Assembly (NCBI GenBank): GCA_945918315.1
Contig: CAMEIK010000049.1
Span: 1 to 7,706 of the forward strand
Source of the DNA: an uncultured Clostridia bacterium
GTDB taxonomy: Bacteria; Bacillota; Clostridia; Oscillospirales; Oscillospiraceae
Reading direction: 5' to 3'
Length of the DNA: 7,706 nt
Shown piece after piece: positions 2 through 7,706 of the stretch (its first letter is position 1; the number at the start of each line of letters is the position of its first letter). The notes beneath the pieces are model-generated. The model did no database searches. It saw only the letters and a list, made by a program, of their open reading frames with translations, and was not told where the DNA came from. The translations under genes and the position numbers were made by a program.

Positions 2-1006
2 TTAAACCTGCCGGCAGGAGGAGCGCTCGATGAGGGTGGGGGTGAGAATCCGGTGGGTATAGCCTGCCAGCTCGTTCTGGACCTTTTCAAGCAGAGTGTG
101 GACGGCAACGGAGGCCAGCATTTTCATAGGCTGTTCGATGGTGGTCAGCTCAATGCGGGGCAGGCCGCTGTCCCGGATATTGTCGAAGCCCAGCAGGGAG
201 AAATCCTGGGGAATTTTCAGTCCCATTTCCTCCGCCGCCTGCATGATGCCCAGGGCGTTGGTGTCGGTGGAGGCGAACACGGCGGTGAATCTCCGCTCCT
301 GAACCAGAAGCTGCTTGGCCAGCTGATAGCCATATTTAATGGAGGTGCCGGGGAAGGTGTTGTTGCAGAACTGGGGGGTAAGCCCCAGGTCCTGACAGGC
401 GGCGGCGTAGCCTTCGCTGCGGAGCTGGTGGGTGATACTGCCCTGCCGCTTGCCGAAATAGAGAATGTCCCGGTGCCCCAGCCGGTACAGGTACTCCACA
501 CCCATATAGGTCCCCCGGAAATTATCCACGGAGACATAGCTCTCCTGGGCATCCCGGAGGTTTTCTCCCACAAACACCGTGGGAAGCCTGGAGAAGAAGG
601 GCTGCAGGCTGTCGTAGCTCTCGGGCCCCGCGGGCAGGAGGATTACGCCGTCCACCTGGCGGCCGATCATCAGCTCAAAGAGCTCCCGCTCCTGCTCAAT
701 GTCCCGGGAGGAGTTGCACAGGATAATATTGTAGCCTCTGGCCCGGGCCTGACGGTCAATGTGATAGGAAAGCTCGGACATGAAGGGATTATTGATGCCC
801 GGAAGGATGAGCCCCAGAAGCTTGGTGCTTTTCATGACCATGGACCTGGCCACGGTGTTGGGGGTGTAGTGCATTTCCTTGCAGATATCCAGGATCCGCC
901 CCCTGGTTTCCTCACTGATCTCGGGGCTGCCCGACAGCGCCCGGGACACGGTGGAATAGGAGACACCCGCGGCTTTTGCCACATCCTTGATGGTAACGTT
1001 TTTCAT
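2..1006 (-). CDS. LacI/GalR-family transcriptional repressor
   Basis: Complete 334-residue DNA-binding regulator, a normal length for the family. The N-terminal helix-turn-helix occupies about residues 4-30 (IKDVAKAAGVSYSTVSRAL), with Y17, S18 and R22 at the positions that read the operator in E. coli LacI. The hinge helix follows (PNTVARSM, residues 49-56). Residues 60-334 are a periplasmic-binding-protein-like sensor domain with the usual landmarks: LLGLILPGINNPF, DGVILLP, SVDN, LGHRDILYFG, a GFDN turn and TTIEQP near the end. Such proteins normally bind a sugar or sugar phosphate and release or tighten on DNA in response. The ATG at 1004-1006 has a GAGGTG ribosome site about five bases upstream, so this start is well supported. 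The gene is divergent from the HAD/phosphoglycerate mutase operon, and operator-like palindromes sit over both promoters, so it probably represses itself and that operon. The effector cannot be read from the sequence. Position 56, the minor-groove leucine of LacI, is methionine. Confidence 0.95.
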   Translation of the reverse strand: MKNVTIKDVAKAAGVSYSTVSRALSGSPEISEETRGRILDICKEMHYTPNTVARSMVMKSTKLLGLILPGINNPFMSELSYHIDRQARARGYNIILCNSSRDIEQERELFELMIGRQVDGVILLPAGPESYDSLQPFFSRLPTVFVGENLRDAQESYVSVDNFRGTYMGVEYLYRLGHRDILYFGKRQGSITHQLRSEGYAAACQDLGLTPQFCNNTFPGTSIKYGYQLAKQLLVQERRFTAVFASTDTNALGIMQAAEEMGLKIPQDFSLLGFDNIRDSGLPRIELTTIEQPMKMLASVAVHTLLEKVQNELAGYTHRILTPTLIERSSCRQV

Positions 1007-1414: not shown

Positions 1415-2179
1415 ATGATTCGGGGCGTTTTATTTGACCTGGGCGGCACCCTCCATGTCAGCGATTCCCCGCCCGGCAGAGACGTATGGTTTGCCCGGCG
1501 GGTGATTGAACGGATGGGGGACTACGGCATCCGGCTGGACATTTCTCCGGAAGCCCTGGCCAATCAGCTGAACGTGAACGCGGAGGAATACAAGCGCCAT
1601 TCGGAGCAGGATCTGCGGGAGCTTCCGACGGCGGAAATCTGGAGCAGGTGGTTTCTGCGGGAGCAGAAGCTGACGCCGGAGCAGCTTTCGCCCATGTCCG
1701 AGGAGCTGAGCTTCCTTTACGACTATGAGCGGGTGCGGGTTATGCGCCGGCCCCACCTGGCCCAGACCATGGAGCGCCTGAGGGAAATGGGCTTCCGCAT
1801 GGGCGTTATCAGCAATATCATTTCCCGGTCGGTGGTACCCCACTTCCTGGCGGAGTACGGCATCGATGGCTATATGGACTGCGTGATCACCTCCTGCGGC
1901 ACCGGCATCCGCAAGCCGGATCCGGATATTTTCCGGGTGGCGGAGAGGAAAATGGGCATGGCCCCCGAAGAACTGGCCTATGTGGGCGACACCATTTCCC
2001 GGGATGTCCGGGGCACCCGGGCCGCGGGCTGGCGTCTCATGATCCAGATTCGGAACCCCGGCGTTGCCCATCGGGACAGGGGACTGGAAAACGGGCCCTG
2101 GAAGCCGGACTACCTGATTGAGGATCTGGCGGAAATTCCCGACATCCTTGCCCGGGAAAACGGACAAAATGACAGGTAA
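1415..2179 (+). CDS. HAD-superfamily protein 1 (D-x-G motif I)
   Basis: First gene of the operon, 254 residues, a HAD subfamily-I-like protein with a small helical cap. ATG 1415 is chosen because AAGGAGG (1401-1407) lies seven bases upstream and the protein then begins directly with the first HAD strand; a longer frame opening at TTG 1363 would start inside the operator. Motif I is FDLGGTL with nucleophile D8, but G10 replaces the second aspartate that serves as acid/base in HAD phosphatases. Motif II is VISN (S133), motif III RKPDP (K167), motif IV VGDTISRD (D192, D197). The cap (about 20-115) shares with the three next proteins a Y-K/R then E-[IL]-W-x-x-W/Y pattern (Y59-K60, E74-I75-W76). 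It is the most divergent of the four. Substrate unknown. The missing aspartate makes simple phosphatase activity uncertain, though phosphoryl chemistry or a binding role is possible. Confidence 0.9.
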   Translation: MIRGVLFDLGGTLHVSDSPPGRDVWFARRVIERMGDYGIRLDISPEALANQLNVNAEEYKRHSEQDLRELPTAEIWSRWFLREQKLTPEQLSPMSEELSFLYDYERVRVMRRPHLAQTMERLREMGFRMGVISNIISRSVVPHFLAEYGIDGYMDCVITSCGTGIRKPDPDIFRVAERKMGMAPEELAYVGDTISRDVRGTRAAGWRLMIQIRNPGVAHRDRGLENGPWKPDYLIEDLAEIPDILARENGQNDR

Positions 2180-2344: not shown

Positions 2345-3076
2345 ATGAACAACAACATTGATACCGTTTTCTTTGATGTAGGCGCGACCCTGCGCTATGT
2401 GGTGGAGGACCCGGAATTTGCCGCCGCTGCCGAAAGGGAACTGATGGAGCTGGTGGGAACGAAGGAGTCCCACGACGAGTTCTTTGCCAAGCTGGAAAAG
2501 AACTGGAAGGCCTACCGGAAGCTGGCCAAAACCGAGCTGCTGGATGTTTCCGAAATGGAGCTGTGGCTTTACTACATGCTGCCGGATTACCCCGCCGAGG
2601 TGATAGGCCCCAACGCCGCCCGGCTGACCCGGCTGTGGCGGGACCATGACGGCCGCCGGGTGGTCCACGAGGGCACCCTGGAGACCATTCACGAGCTGAA
2701 AGCCCGGGGCTACAAGCTGGGCATCATCGCCAACACCGTCACCGAGACGGAGATCCCCGACTGGATGTGCCGGGACGGCGTGGCCGACTGCTTCAAAACC
2801 GTGATCCTTTCCTCCAAGGTGCGGCTGCGCAAGCCCGACCCCACCATCTACCAGCTGGCGGCCCGGTGCATCGGCTCCAAGCCGGAAAACTGCGCCTATG
2901 TGGGCGACAACCCGGTGCGGGATGTGGAGGGTGCCGTGAACGCCGGATTCGGCGCCATGATCCTCTTTGAGGACGCGGGCACCGCCGACCGGGAGGGCAA
3001 GGCCCCCACGGTGCAGCCGGACTACCGCATCCATGGCATCCCCGAGCTGCTGGACCTGCTGCCCGCCAGGGGGTAA
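2345..3076 (+). CDS. HAD-superfamily protein 2 (D-x-G motif I, motif II Ser/Thr lost)
   Basis: 243-residue paralogue of the next two proteins. ATG 2345 follows GGGAGG (2332-2337) by seven bases; the in-frame extension back to 2204 has no ribosome site and no HAD-like sequence. Motif I is FFDVGATL with nucleophile D11 and G13 in place of the acid/base aspartate. Motif II reads GIIAN, so the usual Ser/Thr is A129. Motif III is RKPDP (K163); motif IV is YVGDNPVRD (D188, D193). The cap has AYRKL (57-60) and MELW (71-74). The C-terminal tail PDYRIHGIPELLDLL is shared in pattern with the other copies. With both the acid/base and the motif II hydroxyl missing, it is the likeliest of the four to be catalytically weak or to have a non-phosphatase role. 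That is inference; the Mg-binding aspartates are intact. Confidence 0.9.
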   Translation: MNNNIDTVFFDVGATLRYVVEDPEFAAAAERELMELVGTKESHDEFFAKLEKNWKAYRKLAKTELLDVSEMELWLYYMLPDYPAEVIGPNAARLTRLWRDHDGRRVVHEGTLETIHELKARGYKLGIIANTVTETEIPDWMCRDGVADCFKTVILSSKVRLRKPDPTIYQLAARCIGSKPENCAYVGDNPVRDVEGAVNAGFGAMILFEDAGTADREGKAPTVQPDYRIHGIPELLDLLPARG

Positions 3077-3080
3077 GGCC

Positions 3081-3812
3081 ATGGAAGAAATCAAAGGCGT
3101 ATTTTTTGACCTGGGAGGCACCCTCCGCATCGCCGAGCATGTGCCGGAGCATGAGGCAAGGGCCGCCGCCCGGATGGCAGAGCTTGCGGGAGCCCGGGAT
3201 GTAGAGGCGTTCATGGATATGGTGGAGCGCCGGTATGAGCCCTACCGGGAATGGGCCCTGACGGAGAACAAGGAGGCCGGGGACTACGAGCTTTGGGCCA
3301 AATGGCTCCTTCCTGAGTACCCGGAGGAAACGCTTCGCAGGATCTGCCACGAAATGACCTACCAGTACCGTCAGGTCAAGGGCCTGCGGCATGTGGTGGA
3401 GGGCGGCGTGGAGGTCATCCATACCCTCCACGCCCGGGGCTACAAGCTGGGCATTATCTCAAACCTCATCGGAGAGACGGAAATCTATGACTGGCTCCGG
3501 GAGGATGGTCTGGAACCCTACTTTGACGCCGTGATTCTTTCCTCCGTCTGCCACATCCGTAAGCCGGACCCCCAGATGTACTTCCTGGGCTGCCAGGCGC
3601 TGGGGCTGAAGCCCGAGGAATGCGCCTCTGTGGCGGACAATCTGAACCGGGACATCACCGGGGCCAAGGCGGCCCGCATCGGGGCCAACATCCTTTACAT
3701 CAGCCCCGAAAAGCTGGCGAAGAAGACCATTACCGAGGAAAACCGGCCGGATTACATTGTGCACCGCTTTACGGATATTCTGGAGCTGCCCTTTTTGCAG
3801 CAGAAAGGCTAG
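3081..3812 (+). CDS. HAD-superfamily protein 3 (D-x-G motif I)
   Basis: 243 residues, starting four bases after the previous stop; AGGGGG overlapping that gene's last codons serves as ribosome site, so translation is probably coupled. Motif I FFDLGGTL has D10 and G12. Motif II is GIISN (S127), motif III RKPDP (K161). Motif IV is SVADNLNRD: the normal glycine before the metal-binding aspartate is A185, while D186 and D191 remain. The cap carries PYREWAL and YELWAKW, nearly the same as in protein 4. A stretch in the RGYKLGI region (3432-3454) is identical at 23 consecutive bases to 2702-2724 in HAD gene 2, pointing to tandem duplication or gene conversion. The substrate is unknown. Cytoplasmic: no signal peptide or membrane segment. 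Confidence 0.9.
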   Translation: MEEIKGVFFDLGGTLRIAEHVPEHEARAAARMAELAGARDVEAFMDMVERRYEPYREWALTENKEAGDYELWAKWLLPEYPEETLRRICHEMTYQYRQVKGLRHVVEGGVEVIHTLHARGYKLGIISNLIGETEIYDWLREDGLEPYFDAVILSSVCHIRKPDPQMYFLGCQALGLKPEECASVADNLNRDITGAKAARIGANILYISPEKLAKKTITEENRPDYIVHRFTDILELPFLQQKG

Positions 3813-3815
3813 TCC

Positions 3816-4556
3816 ATGGAAAAGCAGATTGATACCATCTTTTTCGACCTGGGAGATACCTTCCGGGTTATCCGGAAGGACCGGGAGTACCAGCGCCAGG
3901 CAAAAGCGGTAATCACCCGCTGCCTGGGGGTGGACACCGATCCGGAGGATTTTTACCGGGACGTGATTGAGCCCCGGTATGATAAGTACAGGGAGTGGGC
4001 CCTGAGCTACTACTGCGAGGCGCCGGTGGAGGTGCTGTGGACGAGGTGGCTTGCCTATGACTTCCCCAAAGACCGGGTGGCTGCCCACGCGGCGGAAATG
4101 ACCTGGGCCTACCGCAAAACCAAGGGTGAGCGGGTGGTTACCGAGGGGGGCATCGACACCGTAAAGGAGCTGTACCGCCGGGGCTACACCCTGGCCATCG
4201 TCAGCGACCTGGTGGGCGTGGAGGAAGTGGACGACTGGCTGGATCACGACGGCCTGCGGCCCTACTTCAAGTCCGTGCAGCAGTCCTCCGTGTGCCTGAT
4301 CCGCAAGCCCCACCCGGCCATTTACTATTACGCGCTGGCGGAAACCGGCGCCGACCCGAAGCGCACCTGCTTTGTGGGGGACAACCTGAACCGGGACATC
4401 ATCGGCGCCAAGGCAGCGGGGCTCGGCATGACCGTTGGGGTCCAGTACCCTGACAAAAAGCCCCAGACGGTGACCGAGGAAAACAAGCCGGACACGTTTA
4501 TTCACCATTTTACCGAGCTGCTGGACCTGTTCCCGCCTCTCGGTGACAAGGACTGA
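3816..4556 (+). CDS. HAD-superfamily protein 4 (D-x-G motif I)
   Basis: 246 residues, starting three bases after the preceding stop; AGAAAGG (3802-3808) is a modest ribosome site seven bases before ATG 3816. Motif I is FFDLGDTF with D11 and G13. The D14 that follows is shifted one position and would not replace the missing second aspartate of D-x-D. Motif II is IVSD (S130). Motif III is RKPHP (K164), with His in place of the common Asp. Motif IV is FVGDNLNRD (D189, D194). Cap residues YREWAL and VLWTRW match protein 3 best, as does the tail TEEN-K/R-PD. Protein 4 is therefore the closest sibling of protein 3. Its stop is 15 bases before the mutase start, so the two are almost certainly cotranscribed. 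Function is unassigned beyond the HAD fold. Confidence 0.9.
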   Translation: MEKQIDTIFFDLGDTFRVIRKDREYQRQAKAVITRCLGVDTDPEDFYRDVIEPRYDKYREWALSYYCEAPVEVLWTRWLAYDFPKDRVAAHAAEMTWAYRKTKGERVVTEGGIDTVKELYRRGYTLAIVSDLVGVEEVDDWLDHDGLRPYFKSVQQSSVCLIRKPHPAIYYYALAETGADPKRTCFVGDNLNRDIIGAKAAGLGMTVGVQYPDKKPQTVTEENKPDTFIHHFTELLDLFPPLGDKD

Positions 4557-4571
4557 TGGGGAGGATGGAAT

Positions 4572-6131
4572 ATGGAAGCACTGTTTACCGGCGGTGAGGC
4601 CCTTGCCCGGGCCGTGGAAGCCGCCTACGCCCAGGGACAGACGGACTACTCTCTGGAGCCCATGGCTCTGGAGGACGAGGCCGGCAATCCCGTGGGCAAA
4701 ATCAAGGATGGGGACCATGTGGTGTTCTGCTGCCGCCGGGGTGAGCGGGAGATCGAGCTGACGGAAGCCTTTGTGGACCCTGCCTTCGACAAGTTTGACC
4801 GTACATATCTGAAGGATCTGGAATTTGTCATCATGACCATGTACCACGACAAATTCAAGGATCTGCCCATTGCCTTCGCTCCGGAAAAGGTGGTCATGCC
4901 CCTGGCCCAGGTCATCAGCGAGGCGGGACTTACCCAGTTCCACTGCGCCGAGTCGGAAAAATACGCCCATGTGACCTTCTTCTTTAACGGCGGGCGGAAC
5001 GAGCCCTTCCCCGGCGAGACCGATGTCCGGGTGCCCTCTCCCAAGGGGATTCCCTTTGACCAGAAGCCGGAGCTGAGCCTGCCGGAGGTGGCGCAGAAGG
5101 TAAAAGGCGCCGTGGATACGGGCTACGACTTCATCCTGACGAACTTCGCCAATGGCGACGTCATCGGCCATACGGCGAATACGCAGGCCAAGCTGAAGGC
5201 CGCTTCCACCGTCAGCCGCTATGTGGGCGAGGTTGCGGAGTACGCCCGGGAGCACGGCTATTTCGTGGCGGTCACCGCGGACCACGGCAATATTGAGGCT
5301 CTCTACGACGCCAAGGGCAAGCCCCATGTGGCCCATACCACCAATCTGGTGCCCTTTGTGGTCCTGGACCCCCAGGGCAGGCAGGTGCCCCTCCACGACG
5401 GACGGCTGGGAGATGTGGCTCCCACGGTGCTGCAGGTGCTGGGCCTTCCCCAGCCTGCCGAGATGACGGGGGCTTCCCTCATTGACGCCCCGGAGATCCG
5501 GAATCAGAAAATGATGCTCATGATTCTGGACGGCTGGGGCTACGGCACCCATGACGACGGCGACGGCATCTACCTGGCCGAAACTCCCGCCTGGGACGCG
5601 CTGCTGAAGACCTATCCCAACTGCCGCCTCCGGGCCTCCGGTGAGGATGTGGGTCTGAAGGCCGGCAAACCCGGCAACTCCGAGGCCGGTCACTCCAACC
5701 TGGGCGCCGGACGGGTGGTGGCCCAGGACGATGTCCGCATGGACGAGGCCATCCGCAGCGGCGCCTTCCGGACCAATCCCATTTTCCTCCATGCCATCGA
5801 GGGAGCGAAAAAGGCGGGCGACCTGCATCTTATCGCCTATCTGACGGAAAAGTCCAGCCACGGCTGTATTGACTATCCGCTGATGCTCACGGAAATGGCG
5901 GAGGGTGTCAGGAACGTTTACTACCACATCATCTTTGACGGACGGTCCACCGAGCCGGGCAGCGCCCCTGCCATGCTCCGGGCCCTGGACGAAAAGCTTC
6001 AAAAGCTGGGCCGGGGCACCATTGTGGACGGTGTAGGCCGGGGCATTGCCCTGGATCGGGACGGCAACTACGCCAAGGTCAGAAAGGCCTACGACTGCAT
6101 GACCCTGGGAGGCGGTACCCGTTACCGCTGA
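4572..6131 (+). CDS. Circularly permuted cofactor-independent phosphoglycerate mutase
   Basis: 519 residues; the normal enzyme has about 510. iPGM interconverts 3- and 2-phosphoglycerate through a phosphoserine, using two metal ions. ATG 4572 has GGGGAGG (4558-4564) seven bases upstream. The order of parts is rotated. Residues 1-100 match the second half of the transferase domain (two substrate arginines R56, R59). Residues 101-305 match the C-terminal phosphatase part: SEKYAHVTFFFNGG with K130, NGDVIGH with D196 and H200, TADHGN with D237 and H238, H255, and the usual terminal MTG at 298-300. After a short linker come MLMILDGWG (metal ligand D320), GNSEAGH (serine nucleophile S370) and the first half of the transferase domain (H430, R458, R490, R496), ending where residue 1 would continue. 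All canonical segments occur once. Against Geobacillus numbering, Asp154 appears replaced by S459 and His125 by C432. Activity is likely but substrate preference is open. No symbol is given because the architecture departs from gpmI. Confidence 0.92.
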   Translation: MEALFTGGEALARAVEAAYAQGQTDYSLEPMALEDEAGNPVGKIKDGDHVVFCCRRGEREIELTEAFVDPAFDKFDRTYLKDLEFVIMTMYHDKFKDLPIAFAPEKVVMPLAQVISEAGLTQFHCAESEKYAHVTFFFNGGRNEPFPGETDVRVPSPKGIPFDQKPELSLPEVAQKVKGAVDTGYDFILTNFANGDVIGHTANTQAKLKAASTVSRYVGEVAEYAREHGYFVAVTADHGNIEALYDAKGKPHVAHTTNLVPFVVLDPQGRQVPLHDGRLGDVAPTVLQVLGLPQPAEMTGASLIDAPEIRNQKMMLMILDGWGYGTHDDGDGIYLAETPAWDALLKTYPNCRLRASGEDVGLKAGKPGNSEAGHSNLGAGRVVAQDDVRMDEAIRSGAFRTNPIFLHAIEGAKKAGDLHLIAYLTEKSSHGCIDYPLMLTEMAEGVRNVYYHIIFDGRSTEPGSAPAMLRALDEKLQKLGRGTIVDGVGRGIALDRDGNYAKVRKAYDCMTLGGGTRYR

Positions 6132-6190: not shown

Positions 6191-6214
6191 AACCCAAGAC
6201 GGAGGTTGATTCGA

Positions 6215-6949
6215 ATGCTTACGGCTGCTCTTCCCACTGTGGACATGACTGCCATTAGCCTGAACGCCTGGGATATTCTGCTGCGTATGATGTCTGCCAT
6301 GCTGGTAGGCGCGATTATCGGTACGGAGCGGGAATTCACCCACCGCCCGGCGGGTATGCGTACCCATATGCTGGTTGCGCTGGGTGCCTGCGTGGTAATG
6401 GTGACCAGTCAGCTGCTCTTTGTCCAGTATCGACCCTATGGCGCGACCCCGGACCCTGCCCGGCTCAGTGCCCAGGTCATTACCGGTATCGGTTTTTTGG
6501 GAGCCGGAACCATTTTGAAGGAAGGTCCTACCATCAAGGGTCTGACCACGGCAGCCAGTATCTGGGCAGTTGCCTGCCTGGGTGTCGCCATGGGCGCGGG
6601 CTACTACGCGGTGGGCTTCGTGGGTGCCGGCTGCATGCTGGTGACCCTGACGATTTTTGAGCGGCTGCAGACGCTGCTGCTGAAAAATAATTACGCTCTG
6701 TACGCCTTCAGCACCACCTGTACGGACATTGCCTATGTCCTGGACCTGATCCGCCGGCTGGCTGCCGAGGCGGACGGCATCGTGACCTCCACGGAGGTGG
6801 AGGAAGCGGAGGACAAGCACACCTTCCGGATTGAGTTCAAGGTGAATTTCCCCGGCAGAGGAGCCGCGGAACGGGAGCAGCAGTTCTTCACTGCCCTGAC
6901 CAGCGATGAACGCACCAGTTCCGTCACCGTTGCCCGGGCCCGGGTGTGA
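6215..6949 (+). CDS. MgtC/SapB-family inner-membrane protein
   Basis: 244-residue membrane protein. ATG 6215 is preferred: GGAGG (6201-6205) is nine bases upstream, while the TTG at 6206 abuts the ribosome site. Family signatures are all visible: GxxxGTERE (residues 32-40), RPAGMRTHMLVALGA (44-58), TGIGFLGAGTI (90-100) and GLTTAASIW (109-117). About five hydrophobic segments fill residues 20-147. The remaining ~95 residues are hydrophilic and acidic, resembling the soluble C-terminal domain of longer MgtC proteins. Members act in magnesium-limited growth and envelope ion homeostasis, and MgtC itself modulates the F-type ATPase in Salmonella; whether that applies here is unknown. The gene is 83 bases after the mutase on the same strand with no obvious promoter of its own, so read-through from the upstream operon is possible but unproven. 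Confidence 0.9.
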   Translation: MLTAALPTVDMTAISLNAWDILLRMMSAMLVGAIIGTEREFTHRPAGMRTHMLVALGACVVMVTSQLLFVQYRPYGATPDPARLSAQVITGIGFLGAGTILKEGPTIKGLTTAASIWAVACLGVAMGAGYYAVGFVGAGCMLVTLTIFERLQTLLLKNNYALYAFSTTCTDIAYVLDLIRRLAAEADGIVTSTEVEEAEDKHTFRIEFKVNFPGRGAAEREQQFFTALTSDERTSSVTVARARV

Positions 6950-7153
6950 GAGCTCTGCCCGAAACTGAGGGATAATCGCGTTTCCCGTAAGGGAAAGGCT
7001 TCGGATTAACGAAATAGACAGCCTGGGGAACGGCAAAAAAACGAGGTTTTCTCCAGGTAGGGGTTTTGTCAACTTTTTTTGGCTTAGATCAAGGGAAATT
7101 CCCCCCTTTTTGCGGGATTTCCCGGGAGCCAACACAGAATGGAGGATTATGAA
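6950..7153 (+). promoter_or_regulatory. Hairpin-rich gap and leader before the pyrophosphatase gene
   Basis: 204 bases without a gene. Three hairpins are visible: TTTCCC-GTAA-GGGAAA (6981-6996, a GNRA-type tetraloop); a 9-bp stem with one G-U pair between 7022-7030 and 7049-7057; and a 10-bp stem with one G-U pair between 7093-7102 and 7114-7123, which may extend through GGCT (7081-7084) with AGCC (7127-7130). A run of seven T at 7074-7080 lies 16 bases past the second stem, too far for a classical intrinsic terminator. TTGTCA (7066-7071) resembles a -35, but no -10 occurs at 16-18 bases. The promoter for the downstream gene is therefore not identified. No known riboswitch class is recognised. 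Confidence 0.45.
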
Positions 7154-7706
7154 ATGAGCCAACTGTTCATCCTTTTTGCCGCCCTGGGTTCCATTGGCGC
7201 GCTGGCTTTTGCCGTTCTGATGGCAAAACGGGCCCTGTCCGTGGATGAGGGCACCGACCTGATGAAAAAGATCGCGTCTTTCATCCGCGCCGGCGCCAAG
7301 GCCTATCTGCACCGGCAGTACACCGTGGTTATTATCTTCTTTGGCTGCATGTTCTGCGTGCTGTGCGTCATGGCGGCCATGGGCTTTCTGACCTGGTTCG
7401 TTCCTTTCGCTTTCGTCACCGGCGGCTTCTTCTCCGGCCTCAGCGGCTATGTGGGCATGAAAATCGCCACCGCTTCCAATGTCCGCACCGCCAATGCCTG
7501 CCGGCAGGGCCTGAACGCGGGTCTGCGGGTAGCCTTCTCCGCCGGTACCGTTATGGGCTTTACCGTGGTTGGCCTGGGTCTGTTTGACATCACCGCCTGG
7601 TATCTGGTGCTGCGGTATCTGTTCCATCTGGAGATGGAGTCCATCACCTCTGCCATGCTGACCTTCGGCATGGGCGCCAGCTCCATGGCCCTGTTCGCCC
7701 GGGTGG
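7154..7706 (+). CDS. hppA: Membrane-bound ion-translocating pyrophosphatase, N-terminal part (cut by window end)
   Basis: The first 184 codons of an open frame that continues beyond the window. ATG 7154 has GGAGG (7141-7145) eight bases upstream; the ATG at 7149 runs into a stop after two codons. This family couples hydrolysis of pyrophosphate to pumping of H+ and/or Na+ across the cytoplasmic membrane. The start matches the family: a first membrane helix (about 2-23), then a cytosolic stretch with IRAGAKAYLHRQY (residues 44-56), a second helix, then GYVGMKIATASNVRTANACRQG (98-119, a hallmark GMxxAT-NVRT block) and VMGFTVVGLGLF (133-144). The catalytic pyrophosphate-binding motif and the residues that decide ion specificity and potassium dependence lie downstream of the window. 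The gene appears to be a separate transcription unit, since a 204-base structured gap precedes it. Confidence 0.93.
   Translation, partial: MSQLFILFAALGSIGALAFAVLMAKRALSVDEGTDLMKKIASFIRAGAKAYLHRQYTVVIIFFGCMFCVLCVMAAMGFLTWFVPFAFVTGGFFSGLSGYVGMKIATASNVRTANACRQGLNAGLRVAFSAGTVMGFTVVGLGLFDITAWYLVLRYLFHLEMESITSAMLTFGMGASSMALFARV

Follow-up and report, generated by a model that had tools for sequence, protein, structure and literature searches.

The window analysed here, a stretch of 7,706 nucleotides, contains an open reading frame whose product is a natural circular permutation of the cofactor-independent phosphoglycerate mutase (iPGM) sequence: each iPGM segment is present once, the two blocks are swapped, and both are read in one frame. 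The permuted clade is widespread, with members labelled Bacillota, Thermotogota and Anaerolineae, and, as judged from alignments, its proteins are conserved enzymes in which the transferase pocket has been reshaped. iPGM is a textbook enzyme and belongs to a class of drug targets. The permutation inverts which domain sits inside which, and it offers a natural case with large sequence samples on both sides; therefore, how topology affects an enzyme that works by domain closure can be tested directly.

Exchanged blocks in a single open frame

In canonical iPGM, the first part of the phosphatase domain is followed by the transferase domain and then by the second part of the phosphatase domain, an order that was not found in the open reading frame of the window (Table 1; the domain boundaries follow what we take to be the limits of the canonical domains). 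When the translated frame was aligned by HMMER with the iPGM of Bacillus/Geobacillus stearothermophilus (PDB 1ejj), residues 14-304 matched residues 219-509 (i-Evalue 4.2e-60) and residues 313-519 matched residues 5-214 (6.2e-38), so that the order of the blocks was exchanged. The alignment was likewise crossed with 51 of 51 canonical iPGMs taken from the fetched loci, whereas a canonical control (L007) gave one collinear stretch with all 51, itself among them. Pfam and NCBIfam each reported two stretches on the frame, and TIGR01307, the NCBIfam equivalog model for iPGM, matched it in crossed order with 461.6 bits against a cut-off of 330.65. In contrast, the model for the archaeal-type enzyme (apgM, TIGR00306) reached 25.4 bits against a cut-off of 320, the transferase part being of the iPGM type, and phosphopentomutase and apgM, which belong to the alkaline phosphatase superfamily, matched the protein much more weakly than iPGM did.

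Table 1. Features of the window, with positions counted from its first nucleotide
Feature	Position	Strand	Evidence or remark
LacI-family regulator, divergent	2..1006	-	PF00356, PF13377; family c2 in 66/81 loci
HAD hydrolase 1, motif I DLGGT	1415..2179	+	PF00702; family c1
HAD hydrolase 2, motif I DVGAT	2345..3076	+	Pfam match; locus families
HAD hydrolase 3, motif I DLGGT	3078..3812	+	Pfam match; locus families
HAD hydrolase 4, motif I DLGDT	3816..4556	+	Pfam match; locus families; 15 bases upstream of the permuted gene
Circularly permuted iPGM-family frame	4572..6131	+	Single open frame, 519 aa
Transferase domain, second part, residues 1-104	4572..4883	+	Residues 14 onward match 1ejj 219 onward; boundary approximate
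FCCRRGERE signature, residues 52-60, within the second transferase part		+	Invariant in 120/120 homologues listed
Phosphatase domain, second part, residues 105-304	4884..5483	+	K130=K336, D196=D403, H200=H407, D237/H238=D444/H445, H255=H462
Linker, residues 305-312, old C-terminus to old N-terminus	5484..5507	+	Between the two aligned blocks
Phosphatase domain, first part, residues 313-384	5508..5723	+	D320=D12, nucleophile S370=S62
Transferase domain, first part, residues 385-519	5724..6128	+	H430=H123, R458=R153, R490=R185, R496=R191
Ser459 codon, in place of canonical Asp154	5946..5948	+	Ser in 201/201 close rows and 125/126 wider rows; Asp in 51/51 canonical rows
MgtC-family membrane protein, downstream	6206..6949	+	PF02308; family c4 in 32/81 loci
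Membrane pyrophosphatase, start of gene, cut by window end	7139..7706	+	PF03030

An earlier reading of the window, made from the sequence only, had proposed an uninterrupted frame in crossed order, a true permutation with every segment present once, and a fusion of the old termini with the new termini opening in a loop of the transferase domain. All of this was upheld by the alignments described above, in which the separately aligned halves were crossed and not collinear, and by the structural alignment to 1ejj. The positions given for the motifs MTG (298-300), DGWG (320-323) and GNSEAGH (368-374) were also correct, but the linker, put at about 13 residues, was found to comprise 8, lying between I304 and K313. 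A partial duplicate or a fusion of two genes was rejected because each segment occurs once.

The AlphaFold2 model of the 519-residue protein had a mean pLDDT of 92.1 and a pTM of 0.85, while residues 313-519 modelled alone gave a pLDDT of 54.3. In the structural alignment with 1ejj, the half that is comparable in chain order had the same fold; structure matches outside the iPGM, phosphopentomutase and sulfatase-type chains were treated as reflecting a common fold. Residue 7 of the model corresponded to residue 212 of 1ejj and the C-terminus to residue 214, an overlap of about 3 residues, and neither the sequence nor the structural alignment to 1ejj revealed a clear duplicated remnant at the new termini. 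An origin by tandem duplication with subsequent loss of the outer halves is plausible. As a result of the permutation, the nesting of the domains is inverted: the phosphatase domain is continuous (residues ~105-384) and is flanked on both sides by the parts of the transferase domain.

Spread and phylogeny of the permuted order

The best 120 of 7999 scored homologues of the window protein were all permuted. A scan of genome contigs (one-per-species genomes) with the signature segment of the window's clade returned 217 relatives, of which 80 loci were kept; all 76 readable ones were permuted, and the remaining 4 were truncated by contig ends or unread. Three of the kept loci (L089, L095 and L106) are strain-named Oscillibacter records that bear no MAG label, and contigs of up to 1.3 Mb were among the named Oscillibacter records with the permuted gene. 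In the window's genus, 6 of 37 genomes carried the close family, the window's own genome among them. Beyond that genome, one carrier was found among 394 genomes of the order sample and one among 391 of the class sample, with the order confirmed on L118; the class search, performed at E ≤ 1e-90 with a rotated query, was probably too strict to pick up the wider permuted family. In a phylum-wide sample of 398 genomes, 11 more carried a far more distant permuted protein (41-45% identity), which was collinear with the window protein over nearly its full length in 10 cases and over 10-434 in one that was cut. When one of these distant proteins was used as the query, 117 of the best 120 out of 7474 matches were permuted by motif order and 3 could not be read by pattern. 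The few named sources among those 120 were Bacillota, Clostridia, Thermotogota, Kosmotoga and Anaerolineae. Ten named proteins of the wider family were checked and were permuted by motif, with P0197 less clear due to an extra early motif. The phylum-wide search and the second protein search ruled out a restriction of the permutation to the window's clade.

An assembly or sequencing error as the source of the swapped order is extremely improbable. The draft genome is 64% complete and comprises 264 contigs, the window being one of them with 7.7 kb, and such an error would be compatible with this. However, the same order was found in the best 120 homologues, in 117 of the 120 proteins of the second list, in the 76 readable genome loci and on the long named Oscillibacter contigs, and the family-specific residues coincide with the swapped order. 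Independent genomes thus refute an artefact, and the order was rightly taken as genuine in the earlier reading.

For phylogenetic analysis, permuted proteins were rotated to the canonical order, and unrooted trees were computed by quick searches from 17 close permuted and 41 canonical rows, from 28 rows across the wider family and 18 canonical rows, and from 32 permuted rows with Oscillibacter added and 18 canonical rows. In each of the three trees, all permuted rows were on one side of a branch with an SH-aLRT value of 100, although in the tree of 17 and 41 rows the tool warned that long branches meet there. The suggestion that the rotated order might define a clade was therefore borne out for all sampled permuted sequences. 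If the root is placed on the canonical side, the close family is nested in the wider family. A single origin of the permuted group is favoured by these unrooted trees. Among the canonical proteins compared, none combined the canonical order with the permuted signature: CCRRGE was present in 0 of 24 canonical open reading frames, and Asp154 was present in 51 of 51 canonical rows.

The literature search, which lay mostly outside subscription journals, found nothing relevant on a permuted iPGM, and the main text of PMC2964296, where iPGM paralogs are described as rare, has no occurrence of 'permut'. Permuted proteins passed the TIGR01307 cut-off of 330.65 bits, with scores of 461.6, 408.0 and 387.6 and two stretches each, and therefore annotation by this model cannot separate them from canonical enzymes. 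Public sources label permuted proteins as ordinary iPGM, where they label them at all. For many species, the listed repertoire of phosphoglycerate mutases (PGMs) and the reconstructed pathways may therefore contain errors.

Active-site residues, gene rows and accompanying mutases

Conservation of the active site was analysed in two alignments of permuted proteins, for which the rows are not all distinct genes. The close alignment of 201 rows consisted of 176 rows (170 distinct) out of 208 candidates and of 25 added rows (22 loci, mostly of the Oscillibacter type, and P0005, P0082 and P0094), with L068 and L001-L006 left out. The 25 added rows were identical to the other 176 in these residues, and a tree with four of them added retained one permuted group. 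The wider alignment had 126 rows, leaving out P0138, P0140, P0159 and P0225, in which the rotation point was not found or the length was below 480 aa, and L170, which is cut. We take the catalytic and substrate residues of iPGM to be the metal ligands, Ser62, Lys336, and the substrate residues H123, R153, D154, R185, R191, R261 and R264. D12, S62, H123, R185, R191, R261, R264, K336, D403, H407, D444, H445 and H462 were identical in the 51 canonical, 201 close and 126 wider rows, the metal ligands, the nucleophilic Ser62 and Lys336 thus being invariant in 201 of 201 close rows. R153 was kept in all close rows and in all but one of the wider rows. The permuted family therefore retains 14 of the 15 named residues and six of the seven substrate residues, with D154 as the exception.

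Asp154, which presumably contacts the hydroxyls of the glycerate, was replaced in all 327 permuted rows, by Ser in 326 of them. G121S, V122S and S124G were also fixed in all 327 rows, F260 was replaced by Arg in all but 2 (Lys in those), N259C and A265E were near-fixed, and position 120 was cationic in 200 of 201 close rows and in 97 of 126 wider rows. Stretches such as CCRRGEREI and KSSHGC in the permuted protein stand in place of YNFRPDRAI and GGVHSH in iPGM. It is this combination of kept active-site residues and fixed changes that indicates conserved enzymes with a reshaped transferase pocket. The permuted protein and the iPGM of 1ejj (TIGR01307) thus share both blocks, the metal ligands, the nucleophilic Ser, the Lys and most of the substrate residues, and the permuted protein differs in its circular permutation, in the replacement of Asp154 and in a gene row that is not glycolytic.

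The gene row of the window's clade was compared across 81 loci, with genes from codon-model calls and with the repeats L001-L006, L036 and L051 left out. In 76 loci, the permuted gene was directly preceded by a HAD gene of the same strand, and an uninterrupted row of LacI, 2 to 5 HADs (mostly 3-4) and the permuted gene was found in 63. Relatives of the fourth HAD (E ≤ 1e-20) occurred in exactly 6 of 60 related genomes, which were those with the permuted gene, the window's own included, and in 0 of the 54 others; a search of 18 carriers found them in 17 (the record of G432 is identical to that of G002). A gene for MgtC, a membrane pyrophosphatase or a PfkB-type kinase is located downstream in this clade.

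The wider family has different gene rows. In five of seven loci of the families f155, f142 and f167 (L160-L163 and L169), the row consists of genes for a GntR regulator, a cyclic 2,3-diphosphoglycerate (cDPG) synthetase, a solute-binding protein, a permease and an ATPase, with the permuted gene last; the GntR gene falls outside L162, which starts inside the row. In the other two loci (L168 and L170), which are truncated at the end of a contig, the ATPase gene adjoins the permuted gene. The synthetase is homologous to that of methanogens (Methanothermus fervidus; 8ork, 8oru) at E about 1e-129, the copy in L161 giving 3.7e-130 to 9sxb and 3.1e-129 to 8oru and 8ork. In contrast to the methanogen system, the gene here is bacterial and stands with genes for an ABC transporter and for the permuted enzyme. 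Among 83 loci of the window's clade, the window included, none had the synthetase gene within the flanks, which extended up to 10 kb and were often shorter. The solute-binding protein of L161 resembles 6wce, which binds pyridoxal-5-phosphate, and 4r72, which was deposited as an Fe3+ component and which we take to be AfuA, a binder of sugar phosphates. In L164-L166, three of the eleven wider loci, a phosphoglucomutase gene adjoins the permuted gene, and none is among the neighbours shown for L167; a gene that we presume to be RapZ-like is located on the other side in L165-L167. The five genomes with the synthetase row are bacterial and encode a close homologue of an enzyme whose product is described as confined to methanogens, cDPG having been reported as found exclusively in hyperthermophilic methanogens (PMC10690619).

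Most of the sampled hosts encode another PGM. Among 34 carrier genomes, which were picked via their permuted loci and include G432, identical in record to G002, a canonical iPGM was found alongside the permuted gene in 25, one of which (G438) has it in fragments only and has a dPGM too. A dPGM over the cut-off was found in 4 of the other 9, so that 29 of 34 have another PGM; the last 5, whose completeness is unknown, showed no canonical iPGM and no dPGM or aPGM over the cut-off. A canonical iPGM, complete or in part, was found in each of the 5 other carriers of the window's genus, and in 7 of the 8 fetched contexts the canonical copy adjoins a tpiA motif. In the wider family, 8 of 11 genomes have the permuted gene and another PGM. 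In three f155 genomes that are 97-98% complete (G879, G952 and G1203), the permuted gene was the sole iPGM-type match and no dPGM was over the cut-off, and therefore the permuted gene could be a working PGM there. The window's own genome (64% complete) showed the permuted copy only.

Candidate reactions

We consider it somewhat better than an even chance that the permuted iPGM-family protein is a metal-dependent Ser-phosphoenzyme whose phosphorylated, glycerate-like substrate differs from 3PG and 2PG. A Ser-phosphoenzyme is likely because the phosphatase half keeps its chemistry. Another substrate is suggested by the loss of Asp154, by the other fixed changes of the pocket, by the presence of a further PGM in the majority of sampled hosts and by the non-glycolytic gene rows. 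As in iPGM, Ser370 of the phosphatase half would accept the phosphate, and the altered pocket, with Ser459 for Asp154, Arg55 for Phe260, Lys427 for Gly120 and Glu60 for Ala265, might hold a different or more anionic acceptor. The substrate is possibly bis-phosphorylated. Our best guess for the family would be that 2,3-bisphosphoglycerate or a closely similar compound is turned into 2PG/3PG, because the gene follows the cDPG synthetase and ABC transporter genes in five relatives. For the window's own lineage, this substrate may be proposed only by kinship, and the exact substrate may differ there, where HAD genes take the place of the synthetase. Several results argue against another substrate. 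The canonical substrate site retains His123 and every listed arginine, which would also fit PGA; the equivalog cut-off is passed; the cation at position 120 varies in the wider family; the synthetase was not found within the flanks of the loci of the window's clade, and L164-L166 have a phosphoglucomutase gene beside the permuted gene instead; in the three f155 genomes and five of the 34 carriers, neither a canonical iPGM nor a dPGM over the cut-off was found; and the window's own genome shows the permuted copy only.

Alternatively, the enzyme may be a true phosphoglycerate mutase, a permuted isozyme for 3PG and 2PG that duplicates another PGM in most hosts and is the only one in some. The retention of 14 of the 15 residues, the TIGR01307 score and the genomes that lack a canonical iPGM and a dPGM over the cut-off (G879, G952, G1203 and the five other carriers) agree with it. 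However, Asp154 is replaced in every permuted row, another PGM is present in 29 of 34 carriers, in 8 of 11 wider genomes and at least partly in 5 genomes of the same genus, and the permuted gene is located in LacI/HAD or cDPG synthetase/ABC rows rather than in a glycolytic one, which makes an isozyme rather unlikely. The identification of the protein as a phosphoglycerate mutase in the earlier reading thus stands as far as a permuted iPGM sequence is concerned, but as a plain PGM it finds no support in view of Ser in place of Asp154, of the other PGMs of most sampled hosts and of the neighbouring genes. It is also conceivable that the mutase ability was lost altogether and that the enzyme is a phosphatase: with Asp154 gone, the phosphoserine would be hydrolysed and not passed back to the substrate. 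The replacement of Asp154 by Ser while the phosphatase-side residues are intact, and the HAD hydrolases as operon neighbours, are in line with this. However, the 327 rows retain, apart from one R153 change, the Arg and His residues of the transferase domain, for which a plain phosphatase would have no obvious need, and we regard this alternative as improbable.

A broader scheme may tentatively be drawn, which we regard as possible though less likely than not. The permuted proteins would be an old iPGM branch in several bacterial phyla with a reaction of its own in the uptake and breakdown of 2,3-bisphosphoglycerate or cyclic 2,3-diphosphoglycerate; the swap in nesting would have been coupled with the new active site; and in gut Clostridia the enzyme would have been recruited to a LacI-controlled array of HADs that lack the usual acid/base Asp. 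If the link with the cDPG synthetase reflects function, there would be a bacterial route for a metabolite described as methanogen-confined.

Some minor features of the gene rows were also observed. Within the close family, the most divergent member (61% identity, L108, 6845-17817) has no LacI or HAD gene next door; a MgtC gene is located upstream, and genes for a solute-binding protein, an ATPase and a permease similar to 2-aminoethylphosphonate-type transporters are located downstream. In Oscillibacter-type loci (L076, L080, L091, L095, L101, L106 and others), a split transketolase and an iron-type alcohol dehydrogenase are encoded downstream. In the window, the divergent LacI gene and the first HAD open reading frame are separated by 354 bases (1006-1361), a candidate site for the operator. 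In HAD enzymes, the second Asp of motif I (D+2) is the acid/base residue. This position was Gly in 280 of 280 readable motifs of the operon HADs, 14 further copies being cut or unreadable, and the Lys motif and the GDxxxxD motif, read by pattern, were each kept in 293 of 294.
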